Positions 4,412-21,411 of a DNA stretch of 26,466 nucleotides are shown here, piece by piece. Location of the stretch: the IMG/VR virus record IMGVR_UViG_3300025087_000277, positions 1-26,466 of that record; one strand, given 5' to 3'. The notes below the pieces were generated by a model. That model worked only from the letters and a program-made list of their open reading frames with translations, had not been told where the DNA came from and did no database searches. Both the position numbers and the translations under genes were made by a program. The DNA comes from a virus. Position 1 is the first letter of the stretch. Each line of letters opens with the position of its first letter.

Positions 4412-6237
4412 TACGGTTGCCTTCCAATAAGTTTATAAGTAACTTCCCATCCACGAATAGTCAATGTAGTTCCTACCCCGGACTCGGTGTGTTTAATATA
4501 AAGTCTATATCCAGACAGATTAAATCTTATCGTGGCCCTTCCTGAAGCCGCCCCGCAATCTACGGTTCCAATAGAAGTATACGTTCCTTCTGGATCGTCT
4601 ATAGCCCCATAGACATTTATTGCGGTTCCACTTTCAGGCTTAAAAAGAATCAACAACTCATAAAAGTTCTTTTTCTGCCCAGGCGCAGAGTCAACAGCGG
4701 GGTGGCCTCTGTCTATAACCTCACAGGCTATAGCTGATCCGTCATCAGACCCCCCCGTATCTCCTGTTAATACATATCCTGTGTACCCGGCAAGATAATT
4801 TTGATTCCTGCTTGACGAATCTTTTAACTCTGCAATAAAGTTTGCAGGAGTATTGGTAATCGGCTGAGTGCCCCATTTATCCATTAAATAGTCATACCAA
4901 ATTAAAAGATCACACTGTTCAGAAGATCCATTCGGCACAATCCATCGGCATTGATTCTTTGTCTTATGGACACTCCCAACAATCTTAGAAAGCTGGCCTT
5001 GGTTCAAAGCGTTCAGGTCAATTTCAAGCCCTAAAGCAGTTGGCGCAACGGATACCCCGTTATAAAACCAAAACCTAGCATTAGCGTCTATGAATGCCAG
5101 CACATTACGAATTGGAACGTTGACTATGCAGGCGTTATTGACCGCACCGGTATCCGGAATCATCTTGTTAAAACCGAACGTGTTCCTATCGCTTCCGTAT
5201 GCGTTCCAGATAGAATTTGTTTTGAAAACTGCTAAAAATCCCGGTCCTTTTCTTATTCCTGTGACAACATCGCCGTCATTGGCGTCTAACCCTCTTCTGT
5301 CGTTCGTATCGCAAGCATTAGGCTTATTGACCTTGGAAAACTGCACATAACTTGAGTTAGGGCCTGCCATGAAAGCGTAACCCTGCCAAATCTCAATCAT
5401 GCTGAAAACAGGCGGTACCCCGTTGCCAAAGCCGTCTATTGCTATACCCAAGCTTGTATCTGCAAGGTTATCCGTGTAAGTAGTGGTTGTGTTGTCGTTG
5501 ATCGTTGCTAGCAGGAGCCATACCCCGCCGCCTACTGTTGTTCTCCAGATTCTTCTCTGATTTATCTGTGCATCGGTAGAAACGGGAATATCCGTAAGAG
5601 CTACCTTTCCGTTCGTCGTTTTATCAACTACCGTCACATCGGCTGTAACAGAAGAAGGGTTCGATTCATGCCCCAAGGATGAATTATAGAACGTTATTTT
5701 ATAAGAATACGTTCCGTTTGTAAGATTCCCTGCCCCGACTCCGGCCAAAGCTACAGTTGCCGTAGTTACAGGGGCCGTTATCCCCATATTATAAACAGTG
5801 GTTCCGTTGTACTTCAGGTTCCCGTCAACACCGTTACCAAGGTAAAACAGATCATCAAATACCGCTGCATCGTAAAGATTATCTGCCGTCCCGGTCCTGT
5901 CACCACCTGCGCCTGTAAGAGTAAGAGAATTCCACTGATTTGCAAAAGGAGAACCGTACCGATAAACCCCGCTAAGTCCGGTTGCTGTCTGCTGTCGGGT
6001 AAGGTCTGACTTTACATAATCAAAGAGCCCAGTAAAGGTAGCGGGATTCCCGCCCTCTGTGAGTTGAACAGAGTTTAATATCTGATATCCGGCCCTCTTG
6101 GTGATAGAAAGAGCTTCATCAAGGTTAAATCCTTCAAACTTATACATGCCGTCATCGGCAAGCGAAGGGTTAACTTTCTTGTTAAGCTCGCCAAGAAGCT
6201 GCAAGTAACCGGATTTCATTTCTCTTGCTACTGCCAT
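4411..6237 (-). CDS. Tail hub / packaged-DNA stabilisation-like protein (608 aa)
   Basis: This large beta-rich protein has a probable propeller core (repeated FDDLFYLGNGVDGN, WQGYAFMAGPNSS, GFLAVFKTNSIWNA, LAFIDANARFWFYNG), with a fibronectin-III-like insertion at about 160-255 containing YKITFYNSSLGHESNPSS. The C-terminal 90 residues look like a beta-sandwich. This arrangement matches stabilisation or tail-hub proteins of short-tailed phages (P22 gp10-type role, though it is longer than P22 gp10). Its TAATG start overlaps the stop of the 191-aa gene. Assignment rests on fold-like pattern and position between the fibre genes and ejection proteins, not on a diagnostic motif. Confidence 0.6.
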   Translation of the reverse strand: MAVAREMKSGYLQLLGELNKKVNPSLADDGMYKFEGFNLDEALSITKRAGYQILNSVQLTEGGNPATFTGLFDYVKSDLTRQQTATGLSGVYRYGSPFANQWNSLTLTGAGGDRTGTADNLYDAAVFDDLFYLGNGVDGNLKYNGTTVYNMGITAPVTTATVALAGVGAGNLTNGTYSYKITFYNSSLGHESNPSSVTADVTVVDKTTNGKVALTDIPVSTDAQINQRRIWRTTVGGGVWLLLATINDNTTTTYTDNLADTSLGIAIDGFGNGVPPVFSMIEIWQGYAFMAGPNSSYVQFSKVNKPNACDTNDRRGLDANDGDVVTGIRKGPGFLAVFKTNSIWNAYGSDRNTFGFNKMIPDTGAVNNACIVNVPIRNVLAFIDANARFWFYNGVSVAPTALGLEIDLNALNQGQLSKIVGSVHKTKNQCRWIVPNGSSEQCDLLIWYDYLMDKWGTQPITNTPANFIAELKDSSSRNQNYLAGYTGYVLTGDTGGSDDGSAIACEVIDRGHPAVDSAPGQKKNFYELLILFKPESGTAINVYGAIDDPEGTYTSIGTVDCGAASGRATIRFNLSGYRLYIKHTESGVGTTLTIRGWEVTYKLIGRQP

Positions 6238-11665: not shown

Positions 11666-12052
11666 CTACCTGTTGTTTATGGAGAAGTCTTCTTTTGAAG
11701 CCTTGAGCCGCATCCGGCGCTTCTTTACCGGCGCTCCGTCAATAAGTACACTGTCTTCCCCAAGGCCATCAGTTTCCTTGACCTCAGCAACGTCTTTTTC
11801 GTCCAGGGCACCGTCAGGCAACGCAAAGTCGCCGTCCTGGTCTTCAACTATGTAAAGTCTGCTCTCGACAACCGCACCGGACCCAGGATCCCACCGGAAA
11901 GCATGTTGCTTTATCCCAAGCTCTGCAATCTCACGAGGAAGAGTAAGGCCCTTTCTTCCGGGCTGCACATACCTTTCCCTGCTATCGAACGTGATTGCAA
12001 CCTCATGATCCACCCTTGACTTCAGCGTTACGAAATCTCCAAATTCCTGCAT
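11666..12052 (-). CDS. Hypothetical capsid-region protein (128 aa)
   Basis: AAAGGAG lies before the ATG. The N-terminal half has beta-type segments with charged loops (FVTLKSRVDHEVAITF, YVQPGRKGLTLPREIAEL), ending in RLYIVEDQDGDFALP. The C-terminus is acidic and then strongly basic (PVKKRRMRLKASKEDF). It follows the major capsid gene after a hairpin. Nothing diagnostic is visible; head completion or decoration is a guess from position. Confidence 0.55.
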   Translation of the reverse strand: MQEFGDFVTLKSRVDHEVAITFDSRERYVQPGRKGLTLPREIAELGIKQHAFRWDPGSGAVVESRLYIVEDQDGDFALPDGALDEKDVAEVKETDGLGEDSVLIDGAPVKKRRMRLKASKEDFSINNR

Positions 12053-12095
12053 TTGTGTCTCCTTTCGCCCTTAGAGTAGGCGGCACTTTTTAAGT

Positions 12096-12130: not shown

Positions 12131-13417
12131 CTAATAACTTGCAACATATACGTTGCTCGCAGTAACCCCATCCATCCTGAAGCAGGTAGAAGGCTTTGAG
12201 CAATGGTAGTTCAGCCAACGCCTATAGAAGGCTTCCCAAACGTCCTTACCGGAGGTCTTGGTAAGGATCGCGCCGGAATCATTTGCCCATTCGCCGTCAA
12301 TCTGCGTGTACTTCTTCATGTAACGCTTGTCGAGGCCGAAGAGCATTCCATAAGGAGCGTTCTTGGATTCGATTACCGGCTTGCCGCCAAAGGTCACATA
12401 TGACTTCTTGGAAGAAGCCGCTGCGGCCTTGGTGCCTCCATCGGGAGACTGAAGGTCAGATCCGGAATAGCGCCGGTCTGCTTCCAGGAGGGCCAGATAA
12501 GCGCGTCTTACGCTGTGGTGACAGGCAAGGGTTGAGATTTCCGCATCTCCAAGCTGCGAGGCAATGTCAAAGTTCAACTGAATCGCATCGAGCGAGAGAG
12601 CGCCAACCGCCGACTGTACCCGGCTCTTGAGCTGCGGGTAGGTGGTACGGGAAAGACCGGAAATGGTTTCCAGATAGGTGCCGTCATCAACGAGGCCCAG
12701 GAGCCCGACCGGTTCGTTGTTGTAGCCACCGCCCGCCGCTGCTGTTTCTGCTGTGGTGTTGAAGCGCACAATATAGTCATTGTTGGTAAAGGTCGTTGAA
12801 GGCACCGTTACCGAAAGGCCCGTTGAAGTCACAGCCGAAATAGTCGTAATCGTGCTGGAGCGAAGCGTACCGTCTCCAGGATTGATGCAACCGATGATCA
12901 TGTTCTTGCGGAGATACCGGGCACCACCCGCTGTTTCGGTCACGCCGCCCGGATTGTCCACAACAAGCGTGGTCTGTGCGCCGGTGCAGTTGACGTAAGC
13001 CAGAATGCCCTTTCCGGCACCCCAAATCATACGCGCCTGTTCACGCTTGAGGTTCGTTACAAGCGTATCCATCGACATGTTCATGGCGTTCTTGAACGCA
13101 CCCTTGGAGGTCTTGGCAGATTCCATCATTTGCTTGGTCATCTGGAAAGAACCGGCGAGGTACTTCATGGAAATATTGAACTGCTGAGGATCGAAGTTAC
13201 CGGCAGTCGGGAGGTTTCCGTTTTCCGTGTATGCACCAACACCCTCGTTATAGCTCATGTTGGTCATTTCCACGGCTTTCCGGCCTTCAAACTGCGCGTC
13301 AGAGACTTTTTCAAACATCTCTGCAACCGGGTCAAAGGTCTGCACCTGATCAGTTACTACGTCCTGATAGTCGTCTTTCAGGATTCCATCGAGAATAGTC
13401 AAAGTTTCGAGAGACAT
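12131..13417 (-). CDS. Major capsid protein, HK97-fold type (428 aa)
   Basis: Length, position after the scaffold gene, and the N-terminal pattern support a major capsid protein. The N-terminal arm (ILKDDYQDVVTDQVQTFDPV) leads into FEGRKAVEMTNMSYNEGVGAY, and the FNISMKYLAGSFQMTKQMME region is the typical strand plus spine-helix start of HK97-like capsids of this group. A Gly/Thr-rich loop segment at 140-215 and LACHHSVRRAYLALLEADRRY in the C-terminal half fit the A-domain. The ATG has AAAGGAAG upstream. It will be one of the most strongly expressed genes in the window. Confidence 0.85.
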   Translation of the reverse strand: MSLETLTILDGILKDDYQDVVTDQVQTFDPVAEMFEKVSDAQFEGRKAVEMTNMSYNEGVGAYTENGNLPTAGNFDPQQFNISMKYLAGSFQMTKQMMESAKTSKGAFKNAMNMSMDTLVTNLKREQARMIWGAGKGILAYVNCTGAQTTLVVDNPGGVTETAGGARYLRKNMIIGCINPGDGTLRSSTITTISAVTSTGLSVTVPSTTFTNNDYIVRFNTTAETAAAGGGYNNEPVGLLGLVDDGTYLETISGLSRTTYPQLKSRVQSAVGALSLDAIQLNFDIASQLGDAEISTLACHHSVRRAYLALLEADRRYSGSDLQSPDGGTKAAAASSKKSYVTFGGKPVIESKNAPYGMLFGLDKRYMKKYTQIDGEWANDSGAILTKTSGKDVWEAFYRRWLNYHCSKPSTCFRMDGVTASNVYVASY

Positions 13418-13438: not shown

Positions 13439-14248
13439 CTATCCTGAGATTTTGGCCCAGGCATCGTTCGATGCTTCGTCAAGAGTTTTAGGCTTTGCGT
13501 CCTTAGCTCTCGGAGGAGTCCCCCCTGGCTTGTGTCTCACCATGGGGTTAGGCGGTGCCGGGCCTCGTTTGTGTGCGGATAGCAACCCTTCGTTAAGTTC
13601 TTGTTCAAAGATTTCTTTCATTCGAGAGAAATCACCCATTGCAAACTGTCGCTGCTCTTCCTGCGTCATCTGAGAGAATATTAAATCCTCTATCTTGCTC
13701 TGGTATTTGGAGTCGATCTTGGCCGCTGAAAGCATCCCTGAAAGCTCACTACTGGCCTTGTTCGCTACAGATTCAAGCTTTGAGCCGGACATTTCGCCTT
13801 TCAAGGCTGAAATTTCTTCCCTGAGTTCTTTTAGTGTCTGAATGTCTTTCAGTTCAGGGTAGACCTTCAAAAGCTCTTGCCGGATTCTCTGCTGGTTCTG
13901 TTCGGCGGTGCGGTCGTCATCAGTCATGGAAGATTTTCTTCGCTGCTCTTCAACAGCTTTTTCCCATTCCTGAAGCTTCTGGAGCTTTGACTTGACCTCG
14001 CCGGGATCTCCAAATTCTGCATATTGCTGGTACTTTTCATGGGTCGTTTTATACTTCCCATACACATCGTTCCAGCGTTCAATAGGCTTCCCGTCGATCA
14101 GGTCTTTGAAGACCGGCTTTTCGCCACCCTCGCCGACTACAGGTTCTTCGCCTCTTTCTTCACCGCCCTCTCCCGGTTCGCCTTGTCCGCCCCGGATAGG
14201 CCGGTACTCATCCCGCAACCAGACTTCATACTCAGACAACGTGTTCAT
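13439..14248 (-). CDS. Capsid scaffolding protein (269 aa)
   Basis: This is an acidic, highly charged, mostly helical protein, as expected for a scaffold. Residues 20-45 are Gly/Glu-rich and disordered. Residues about 85-160 form a long coiled coil (KLQKLQEWEKAVEEQRRK; ELREEISALKGEM). The C-terminal 45 residues are basic and Pro-rich (KRGPAPPNPMVRHKPGG), like the coat-binding ends of scaffolds. It lies directly before the capsid gene with a 21-base gap. GAGG lies seven bases upstream of the ATG. Residues 182-218 share the IED, MT-x-EEQ and FA-x-G pattern with the 78-aa gene at 15319-15555. Confidence 0.8.
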   Translation of the reverse strand: MNTLSEYEVWLRDEYRPIRGGQGEPGEGGEERGEEPVVGEGGEKPVFKDLIDGKPIERWNDVYGKYKTTHEKYQQYAEFGDPGEVKSKLQKLQEWEKAVEEQRRKSSMTDDDRTAEQNQQRIRQELLKVYPELKDIQTLKELREEISALKGEMSGSKLESVANKASSELSGMLSAAKIDSKYQSKIEDLIFSQMTQEEQRQFAMGDFSRMKEIFEQELNEGLLSAHKRGPAPPNPMVRHKPGGTPPRAKDAKPKTLDEASNDAWAKISG

Positions 14249-14300
14249 GCTGCTACCTCTTTTCTCGCCCGTAATGTCGGCGGCACGTTTATTCGCTCTT

Positions 14301-14362
14301 GTCGTTAGCGGTACGCAACCTGTTTAACGACCTTTCAGGGAGTCGGCCCCTAGCCACAGGTT
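14301..14362 (-). ncRNA. Candidate H-type pseudoknot in the scaffold/capsid leader
   Basis: On the minus strand four 7-nt segments occur in the order A, B, A', B': AACCTGT (14362-14356), GTCGTTA (14331-14325), ACAGGTT (14323-14317), TAACGAC (14307-14301). A pairs perfectly with A' and B with B', the crossing order of an H-type pseudoknot. The 24-nt first loop holds a small hairpin (AGGG/CCCT) and the 9-nt last loop contains GCG-TAC-CGC. It lies just downstream of a terminator and 52 bases before the scaffold ATG. No known riboswitch class is recognised. Formation in RNA is inferred. Confidence 0.55.
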
Positions 14363-14371
14363 GAAGGCAAT

Positions 14372-14418
14372 AAAAAAAGGCCACATCAAGTAACTTTTCA
14401 GTTACCCAACGTGGCCTT
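14372..14418 (-). terminator. Rho-independent terminator before the scaffold leader
   Basis: On the minus strand AAGGCCAC pairs with GTGGCCTT, and inside it GTAACT-GAAA-AGTTAC forms a perfect 6-bp stem with a stable GAAA tetraloop. Seven Ts end it (14378-14372). It stops or attenuates transcription arriving from the portal and the 269-aa zinc-finger gene before scaffold and capsid. Confidence 0.9.
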
Positions 14419-14431
14419 CGATTACGAATAG
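14414..14431. repeat. Palindromic repeat copy R3 (variant)
   Basis: On the minus strand CTATTCGTAATCGAAGGC, matching R1 and R2 at 15 of 18 positions. The core is TTCG-TAAT-CGAA where R1/R2 have TCCG-TAAT-CGGA, so two changes keep the arms complementary. It lies downstream of the 269-aa gene and touches the terminator stem. No start codon follows, and the Shine-Dalgarno GGAGG has become GAAGG. Confidence 0.7.
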
Positions 14432-14459: not shown

Positions 14460-15269
14460 CTAACCTACCATTGTCCAGTTACTTGGATCAATTCCGGATT
14501 CTCTTAATGCGTTTTCTAAATTCCCAAACCTACTATGAACCACATCCCAAGAAGGAGATCCAACAAAATCTCTTGCATGGACTCTTCCCTTTTTAATATA
14601 TATTTTTCTGATACCAGCTATTATTTCTATATCAGAAATTCTTTTTTGTGCTGGTCGAGGGGCCATCCCTCTATGCTCAATATATTTATTGAATGTTCCA
14701 AATGTCTGCACTATCCTTGTTAATACAGGCTCATCATATTGTCTTAATTCACGCGAGGTAGGTTGCTTCCCTAGCTGCGCGGCGACAATATCAAACCTAT
14801 AATTAACCTGATCAGGGCATAACCCCTTACTATTTAAAGCTGCCAACGTCCCTTTTGCTTCTTTTAACGATATACTTTTATTAATAAAATGTTGTTTTTT
14901 GTTTTTTTTCCTGGCAGCAACCCCTTTAAGTGCTGATTGTTTTAGTATTGCTATATTCTCCGCTGTCATCCCTATCGTTTTTCTAAATTCTTTTATTTCC
15001 TTAGAAACAAGAGAATCTTTATCTCTAAGCCCAAACTTCTTCTTATATTCTTTAACCTTTTTTTTGTGATTTAAAAATATATGATTTGATAAATTATCAA
15101 ACCATTCTCCGCAAATATGGCATTGCAGTTTGCCATCTCCCTCACGCTCTAAAACTACTCCAGGATAGCCATGCCCATCTACCAACTTCCTAAACGGAGG
15201 ATGGAGTTTATAAAGATTGTATGATTTCGTTCCTTTTGGTAACTCAAAATCTACTTTACTCGCTGTCAA
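14460..15269 (-). CDS. Ros/MucR-type zinc finger protein with two homing-endonuclease-associated repeats (269 aa)
   Basis: Start is a TTG with GGAGG nine bases upstream; no in-frame ATG fits as well. Residues 50-68 hold C50-x2-C53-x9-H63-x4-H68 followed by EYKKKFGLRDKDSLVS, the pattern of Ros/MucR C2H2 DNA-binding proteins. Residues about 157-202 and 213-262 are two repeats of the homing-endonuclease-associated type (LGKQPTSRELRQY...TFGTFNKYIEHRGM; KKGRVHARDFVGSPSWDVVH then RFGNLENALRESG). No HNH or GIY-YIG nuclease motif is seen, so it is probably a DNA-binding protein or a relic of a homing enzyme. It is AT-rich compared with its neighbours and bounded by palindromic repeats, suggesting insertion. 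Confidence 0.7.
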   Translation of the reverse strand: MTASKVDFELPKGTKSYNLYKLHPPFRKLVDGHGYPGVVLEREGDGKLQCHICGEWFDNLSNHIFLNHKKKVKEYKKKFGLRDKDSLVSKEIKEFRKTIGMTAENIAILKQSALKGVAARKKNKKQHFINKSISLKEAKGTLAALNSKGLCPDQVNYRFDIVAAQLGKQPTSRELRQYDEPVLTRIVQTFGTFNKYIEHRGMAPRPAQKRISDIEIIAGIRKIYIKKGRVHARDFVGSPSWDVVHSRFGNLENALRESGIDPSNWTMVG

Positions 15270-15318: not shown

Positions 15319-15555
15319 TTACAATTTTGGGAACCACCTTTTTAAATATTTATCAATTAATCTTTTTGCATCAGCTCCGCCAAGTGCAAAAACCTTTTGT
15401 TCTTCTTTGGTCATTTCATAAAACATTGTGTCTTCTATGTCCGGTTGAATTTCTTTTAATCTGATTCGTAAGTGATCAGACAATTGATCTGCAATCTTTG
15501 TAAGCTTTTTAGATTTCACCAACAACAACAATGATTTAATCATACTTAATTTCAT
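15319..15555 (-). CDS. Small helical protein related to the scaffold C-terminal region (78 aa)
   Basis: GGAGG of repeat R1 lies a few bases upstream of the ATG. Residues 1-20 are basic and Leu-rich. Residues 36-71 (IQPDIEDTMFYEMTKEEQ onward, then FALGG) align with scaffold residues 182-218 with the shared pattern Q-x2-IED-x2-F-x2-MT-x-EEQ-x2-FA-x-G. Such similarity next to a scaffold gene suggests a duplicated assembly segment or a regulator competing with it, but this is inference. It lies between repeats R1 and R2 and may have entered with the 269-aa gene. Confidence 0.6.
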   Translation of the reverse strand: MKLSMIKSLLLLVKSKKLTKIADQLSDHLRIRLKEIQPDIEDTMFYEMTKEEQKVFALGGADAKRLIDKYLKRWFPKL

Positions 15556-15576: not shown

Positions 15577-15578
15577 AT

Positions 15579-20973: not shown

Positions 20974-21411
20974 CTACCCCCTCATTTCGTTGTGTAATTC
21001 CCTGTGGCAATTCGCGCATAGGGCGATACATTTATCGAGTTCTGTAAGCCTCTTAGCAGTAACACTTTTCGACAACATCTGGCACGGTTCAAGCTCTTTT
21101 TCTTCAGGTTGCGTATGATGAAAATCTATAGCGCCAAAAAATTTATCATATCCGCATCTTTGGCATTTGTTCATGCCGCGAGCTTCTATTATCTCCATCC
21201 ATTTTGCTTTTTTCCTTAATCTATACTGACGCTGTTCCTCTTTAAGCTTTCCTGAATTTTTATATTTTCCCCTGCGCCTAGCTTTTTGGGCTTTTACTTT
21301 ATCCGGGTTATTCAGTTTCCACTTTTTTATGCTGGCTAACGTAGTCACCCTGAATTGTTGGTAGTGCGCTCGCTGCCACGCGTTTCTTTTAACCCTGTCC
21401 TTAATTGGCAT
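20974..21411 (-). CDS. HNH endonuclease (145 aa)
   Basis: Residues 83-140 carry the HNH fold: C83-x2-C86, the catalytic stretch D96-F97-H98-H99 and the second zinc pair C132-x2-C135-H136-R-x2-H140. The N-terminal 75 residues are strongly basic (KVKAQKARRRGKYK), likely DNA-contacting. It is freestanding between terS and the small genes before terL. Two roles are possible: a homing endonuclease, or the HNH partner some phages need for terminase cutting. The poor ribosome site and a long upstream hairpin set it apart from its neighbours. Confidence 0.85.
   Translation of the reverse strand: MPIKDRVKRNAWQRAHYQQFRVTTLASIKKWKLNNPDKVKAQKARRRGKYKNSGKLKEEQRQYRLRKKAKWMEIIEARGMNKCQRCGYDKFFGAIDFHHTQPEEKELEPCQMLSKSVTAKRLTELDKCIALCANCHRELHNEMRG

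Follow-up and report, generated by a model that had tools for sequence, protein, structure and literature searches.

Tandem H-type pseudoknots in phage scaffold-gene leaders and their possible role in scaffold translation

What kind of RNA structure precedes the scaffold-like gene of an uncultured tailed phage, and what might it do there? The window, by which we mean the whole 26.5-kb stretch of DNA analysed here, is an uncultured tailed-phage record whose late genes lie on the minus strand in the order TerL, portal, an inserted block, a scaffold-like gene (13439..14248; 269 aa, with an acidic N-terminus), the major capsid protein (MCP) gene (12131..13417; phrog_14242 major head protein, E 5e-38) and more virion genes. 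The scaffold-like protein of the window falls in no Pfam or PHROGs family, and its putative function is taken from gene order and from homologues in the same position. In the leader of this gene, the initial annotation had drawn a possibly regulatory pseudoknot of no recognized class, made of two crossing 7-bp stems with a nested hairpin, directly behind a terminator.

As a description of the letters, this drawing is accurate. On the minus strand, AACCTGT (14362-14356) complements ACAGGTT (14323-14317) as stem A, GTCGTTA (14331-14325) complements TAACGAC (14307-14301) as stem B, and the two cross in the order A-B-A'-B' at the positions where they had been placed; the nested hairpin AGGG...CCCT is present, a terminator (14376..14419, minus strand) does lie directly upstream, and 52 bases do separate the last base of the element from the scaffold ATG at 14248. 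The annotation was also right that the arrangement is unlikely by chance: when the 62 bases were shuffled 20,000 times with dinucleotides preserved, a crossing perfect 7-bp pair arose in 0.05% of the shuffles, and at least one perfect 7-bp pairing in 6.4%. Ordinary minimum-free-energy folding, a method blind to pseudoknots, gave the leader an energy that is not unusual (z = 0.0). The distinct scaffold leaders of seven near relatives, with MCPs 61-73% identical, separate the two stems. The compensatory changes that the annotation had sought in both are found for stem A (GGAACCGA/TCGGTTCC in L004, TGAGTA/TACTCA in L006, CGAGTA/TACTCG in L007), whereas stem B has no partner in these three leaders, the best match being 4-5 of 7 bases. 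What finds support is a pseudoknotted, probably regulatory, unclassified leader RNA before the scaffold gene; the particular knot proposed for it does not.

The terminator does not belong to the conserved element either, and is part of the inserted homing-endonuclease-like gene (14460..15269, minus strand; HNH_repeat and ROS_MUCR in Pfam) that lies between portal and leader. The inserted block (~16007-14376) is composed of two small ORFs, this gene and the terminator, and among the near relatives it is confined to the window and to L002, an identical copy of it; L004, L006 and L007 lack the terminator, and their leader directly follows the portal stop codon without insert. Within the block, a repeat, GGCTATCCGTAATCGGAGGGG, found at 15578, 15293 and 14434 (minus strand), makes a small hairpin with a Shine-Dalgarno (SD) sequence at its end; its copies precede ORF 15319-15555 and the endonuclease-like gene, and the degenerate third copy lies at the start of the terminator. 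Elsewhere in the window, a second HNH endonuclease gene (20974-21411; phrog_2255) has a 160-nt gap 5' of it that looks structured.

The structure that the leaders conserve is, as read from their sequences, a tandem array of ~22-nt H-type pseudoknots of one class. Each unit of this kind, hereafter type 1, runs through S1 (3-5 bp), a 2-nt L1 (GC, GU, AC or GA), S2 (4 bp, usually CGCC/GGCG), L2 (1-2 nt), S1', a short L3 that ends in AAG, ACG or similar (nAAG/nACG) and S2', and it is an H-type pseudoknot because stems S1 and S2 cross. Two descriptor matches lie on the minus strand of the window leader: PK1 (14328..14351; AGGG GC CGAC U CCCU GAAAG GUCG), whose S1 (AGGG/CCCU) is the nested hairpin of the initial annotation and whose S2 pairs CGAC (14345-14342) with GUCG (14331-14328), and PK2 (14294..14315; CGU AC CGCU A ACG ACAAG AGCG). 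Both are compensated in the relatives, PK1 in L006 (AGGG GC CGAC A CCCU UAAG GUCG), L007 (AGGA/UCCU) and L004 (CGAGU/ACUCG), and PK2 in L004 (CGC/GCG) and L006 (ACGG/CCGU together with CGCC/GGCG). A weak third unit, PK3 (14266..14287, minus strand; (C)GU GC CGCC G AC AUUACG GGCG), was read from the sequence and fits the class only in part, its S2 being perfect and its S1 having two Watson-Crick pairs; 3-4 perfect S1 pairs occupy the same position in L004, L006, L007 and L003. Five bases 3' of PK3 comes the SD-like AGAGG of the scaffold gene (14256..14260, minus strand). Stem A (14317..14362, minus strand) appears as an outer stem that encloses PK1 and is specific to near relatives. As for stem B, it overlaps bases of the conserved PK1 S2' and PK2 S1' and so competes with both, as would be required of a switch whose other state is PK1 plus PK2; both stems of the A/B knot are perfect 7-mers, and their crossing is rare by chance, but with B lacking a counterpart in L004, L006 and L007, we think it highly improbable that this knot is functional in the window phage, as a switch state or otherwise.

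Arrays of 2-3 tandem units were found in the window, L003, L006, L007, L189 and L119, the leaders of L003, L006 and L007 having three each. The strict descriptor recovers 2-3 units in most near-relative leaders against 0.06-0.12 in shuffles, a count which, taken alone, is partly circular since the descriptor was derived from the same leaders. A single unit also lies behind the MCP gene of the window (12066..12087, minus strand; AGU GC CGCC U ACU CUAAG GGCG), where the SD of ORF 11666-12052 follows immediately, and L015 has AGG GC CGCC G CCU AAUCG GGCG in the same place. Between the end of the MCP gene and this unit, the window has a strong hairpin, GCGGGGGTC-TTTGAT-GGCCCCCGC (12119-12096, minus strand), which L081 and L085 have too.

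Does the pairing hold where it was not selected? Here, we scanned IMG/VR with a one-unit DNA pattern in which the closing S1 pair was left free as Y and R. The 77 stretches recovered amount to 60 distinct contexts, most of them just 5' of a scaffold-like gene followed by major capsid genes of unrelated families, and the free Y and R are complementary in 59 (41 T-A, 18 C-G), the single non-complementary context not being before an ORF. Among 33 further units beside pattern matches, picked by an anchor that ignores S1 entirely, 23 have at least three Watson-Crick S1 pairs, versus 2.2 expected and a maximum of 8 over 2000 shuffles. When 20 distinct units chosen without S1 are set together (one obvious chance match of other length being omitted), each of three S1 pairs changes on both sides, and the S1 cells, which count sequences and not events, are 97.9% paired versus 72.6% when shuffled, with a covariation of 0.598 versus 0.108; sliding the S1 partners by one column brings pairing below 46%. 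The 100% pairing of S2 is uninformative because selection required it, and S2 varies too (CGAC/GUCG, CGCU/AGCG, CGCA/UGCG, CUCC/GGAG). The carriers spread over 15 MCP clusters at 50% identity and over four components that blastp does not link, one of them a single sequence. A second DNA pattern returned mainly chance matches, with a paired 4-bp S1 in 1 of 54, and this negative set puts isolated chance units at ~7 per 0.95 Mb of strand. The same pattern led to an array of three tandem units in L143 (~4770-4870, reverse complement) and L157 (1058-1160) that precedes a 170-aa ORF of unknown kind and then a capsid-like ORF; given that downstream ORF, this array is not tied to scaffold genes alone.

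As to position, the 529 kb of carrier contigs contain 84 units in the leader, a single same-strand unit outside it, which lies behind an MCP gene as in the window, and one antisense unit. From the last unit to the start codon, the median distance is 17 nt (quartiles 13-22.5), usually with the SD right after the unit; a few leaders are without a clear SD, and S2' mostly ends short of it instead of pairing with it. The gene 5' of the units is often portal, and of the 48 cases in which an upstream ORF was identified, 19 have its stop codon at or in S1. The units are typically followed by an acidic ORF of 200-320 aa (mean net charge of the N-terminal half, -10.7), and the gene after that matches an MCP family in nearly all of 36 cases (phrog_1357 or phrog_334; Phage_capsid_4 or Phage_capsid_3), the MCP of the window belonging to a third family. 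Neither a PHROG scaffold family nor a common family was detected among the scaffold-like proteins of the carriers, which owe the name to gene order and to annotated relatives.

The type 1 element occurs widely but unevenly. With one uncultured scaffold protein as query, tblastn led, through protein similarity alone, to the Pseudanabaena phages Pam1, Pam5 and Pan3; a scaffold gene follows portal in Pam1 and Pam5, Pan3 has an equivalent ORF, and the portal-scaffold gap holds units in all three. Over the whole 36-kb Pam1 genome, the strict descriptor has two matches, both in that gap. Phage CBW1004C-Prop1, found via MCP similarity, has one unit, and the Rhizobium tubonense prophage L189, found via the DNA pattern, has three before its scaffold and MCP pair; a profile search of genome contigs with the MCP alignment found nothing. 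The idea that every MCP relative has the unit failed, as it is absent from 12 more distant named or deposited phages (including Page, KPP25, PEp14, JC1, LASTA and API480) and from P22, whose portal-scaffold gap is 13 nt, so that the element is not required for scaffold expression in general. In PEp14, JC1 and LASTA, which have an MCP of the same superfamily and no pseudoknots, a gene for a CsrA-like RNA-binding regulator lies directly 5' of the MCP gene (2155-2346 in L200, Erwinia PEp14; 2103-2297 in L203, Burkholderia JC1; 2193-2402 in L206, Klebsiella LASTA), perhaps as another post-transcriptional route to capsid-gene control.

More distant MCP relatives have a different knot in the same place before the scaffold gene. 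This second architecture consists of S1 (4-6 bp), no L1, S2 (4 bp), RA and an A-rich L3, as in CGCGG-ACAC-GA-CCGCG-TTAAAAA-GTGT, and its S2 changes on both sides (ACAC/GUGU, UCAC/GUGA, UCGC/GCGA, ACGC/GCGU), with 96.8% pairing versus 79.5% shuffled in a set of only seven sequences. Over 302 kb searched on both strands, its descriptor has 11 matches, of which 10, all sense, lie directly 5' of the gene in scaffold position, before its SD. One such contig, L209, and Brevibacillus phage Abouo have scaffolds of the SPP1 gp11 family (PF06810); in Geobacillus phage phiOH2 the S2 of this knot is 3 bp long, as it is in Jimmer1 when read by eye, and, as no more than a lead, the leaders of SPP1 and Ray17 can be read by eye as the same architecture with a weak S2. 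The two architectures may form one family or be convergent. The GC-rich soil-phage relatives (L022, L027, L033, L035, L037, L041 and L046) have yet another leader, ~50-150 nt before the scaffold start, in which the apical loop of one hairpin (CCTCG, CCTAG, CCTTGG) complements the loop of a second (CGAGG, CTAGG, CCAAGG), and part of the second hairpin also belongs to an intrinsic terminator ~50 nt 5' of the scaffold ATG; by eye, this reads like an attenuator with a kissing-loop antiterminator.

What, then, could the units do? Since the last one ends a median of 17 nt upstream of the start codon, they most likely serve to control scaffold translation, and a covarying, sense-strand fold held beside the scaffold ribosome-binding site suggests to us, at about an even chance, that the tandem pseudoknots control initiation at the scaffold gene and thereby the scaffold:coat ratio. 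The last unit, once folded and probably stabilised by a bound protein, would compete with the 30S subunit for the ribosome-binding site, and further units would increase affinity or cooperativity. Free scaffold and coat protein are candidate binders, and either would provide feedback that halts the synthesis of scaffold once assembly stalls; in leaders whose S1 contains the upstream stop codon, a ribosome that reaches it would melt the unit and so couple scaffold translation to the preceding gene. Both the repeated units and the scaffold feedback observed long ago in P22 would be accounted for if a bound assembly protein acted as repressor. On the other hand, one shared phage-encoded ligand is not obvious, because no common scaffold family was detected among the carriers and their MCP groups are unlinked by blastp, and a host factor or a ligand-free role fits this as well or better.

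The best rival is stabilisation of the mRNA, since the units stand at the border between one low-copy and two high-copy products. Compact knots would block a 5'-to-3' exonuclease (RNase J type) or an endonuclease scanning from the 5' terminus; the long portal-scaffold-coat transcript would then decay to a stable scaffold-coat mRNA and yield far more coat and scaffold than portal. A location exactly between the portal gene and the scaffold and coat genes is what this predicts, tandem copies of fixed architecture and free stem sequence suit a physical block, and the additional copy that the window and L015 carry right after the MCP gene is in keeping with it; however, a block to decay could sit anywhere in the gap, yet the distance from last unit to start codon is narrow, and we regard stabilisation as rather unlikely. 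That same placement just 5' of a free SD would also be expected of translational enhancers, stable folds that would keep the ribosome-binding site single-stranded or recruit ribosomal protein S1 or the 30S subunit, for constitutively high scaffold and coat synthesis without feedback. Hosts as different as cyanobacteria and Rhizobium, combined with unrelated scaffolds, suggest a host-side partner of this sort. Nevertheless, type 1 units have no conserved single-stranded A/U-rich site for S1, their strong covariation and conserved L3 suggest specific recognition, and the A-rich class occurs in Firmicutes phages too, whose hosts are not known to have a canonical ribosomal protein S1; enhancement therefore seems unlikely to us.

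Pairing rules alone cannot separate RNA from single-stranded DNA, and the stems might form at the DNA level, in a packaging, recombination or replication site. A comparison of G-U with A-C mismatches as a sign of RNA or DNA gave 8 against 2, too small a sample to decide and mostly from one lineage; the units are almost always sense to the scaffold gene (84 versus one antisense) and keep their distance to its start codon, which makes a DNA-level function very improbable. Other candidates were dropped by eye: for hammerhead, HDV-like and pistol ribozymes, the conserved bases are absent and Rfam gives no match; for frameshifting or stop-codon readthrough, the frame past the upstream stop closes, in the cases read, within a few codons, and no slippery heptamer is apparent.

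Returning to translational control, one may tentatively go further and ask whether tailed phages in general could control capsid assembly through a hitherto unrecognised layer of pseudoknots beside the scaffold ribosome-binding site. The CGCC class (in cyanophages, in prophages of alphaproteobacteria and in many phages not yet cultured) and the A-rich class (in SPP1-family and other scaffold leaders) would then serve as operators that feed the state of assembly back on scaffold synthesis; we hold this to be possible, if doubtful. The scaffold/coat proportion in phages is an old question, and the RNA side of its control is largely unknown. In this regard, scaffold leaders of unrelated capsid families are marked by a compact element that can be recognised by eye and by a simple descriptor, and its presence in cultured cyanophages makes the question of control directly testable. 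The element would also substantially enlarge the small set of known phage mRNA pseudoknots and would provide a small, stem-programmable part for expression control.

How do these leaders relate to known systems? With Rfam 15 (cmscan), neither the window nor 35 loci with or near the element gave a match at the gathering threshold, and a permissive search (E<=5) of the window and L119 leaders gave nothing credible, the best weak matches in the window leader being microRNA-like and on the terminator. No earlier description of scaffold-leader pseudoknots was found in open full text; subscription papers and preprints lay outside that search, so an earlier account is possible. Riboswitches of the preQ1 and SAM-II type share a compact H-type fold that has an A-rich loop and meets the ribosome-binding site; the scaffold-leader units differ from them in having no Rfam match, no metabolic gene and a free S1 sequence. 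For the gene 8 scaffold of P22, post-transcriptional feedback on scaffold synthesis was reported decades ago, which resembles the feedback proposed here, although P22 itself has no unit. The closest counterparts in type are STAXI, with its tandem pseudoknots, and the operator of T4 gene 32. The STAXI motif (RF01728) is a simple pseudoknot in two or three tandem repeats (PMC2864571), and type 1 units share this tandem repetition; they differ in that the window and the carriers do not match the RF01728 model, that STAXI has UUCG tetraloops where type 1 units have no tetraloop, that STAXI stands before ssb, topoisomerase, antirestriction or integrase genes instead of among portal, scaffold and MCP genes, and that its hosts are Enterobacteriales, unlike those of the type 1 carriers. 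According to a 2010 review, the T4 gene 32 operator is possibly the only viral pseudoknot in translational autoregulation (PMC3014915). The operators of T4, T2 and RB69 are, like type 1 units, phage H-type pseudoknots in the leader of a phage gene; they occur only once, 67 nt upstream, have an A+U-rich tract of repeats between knot and start codon to which gp32 binds, and precede the gene of an ssDNA-binding protein, whereas type 1 units are often tandem, adjoin the SD and precede a scaffold-like gene across the short gap that holds it.
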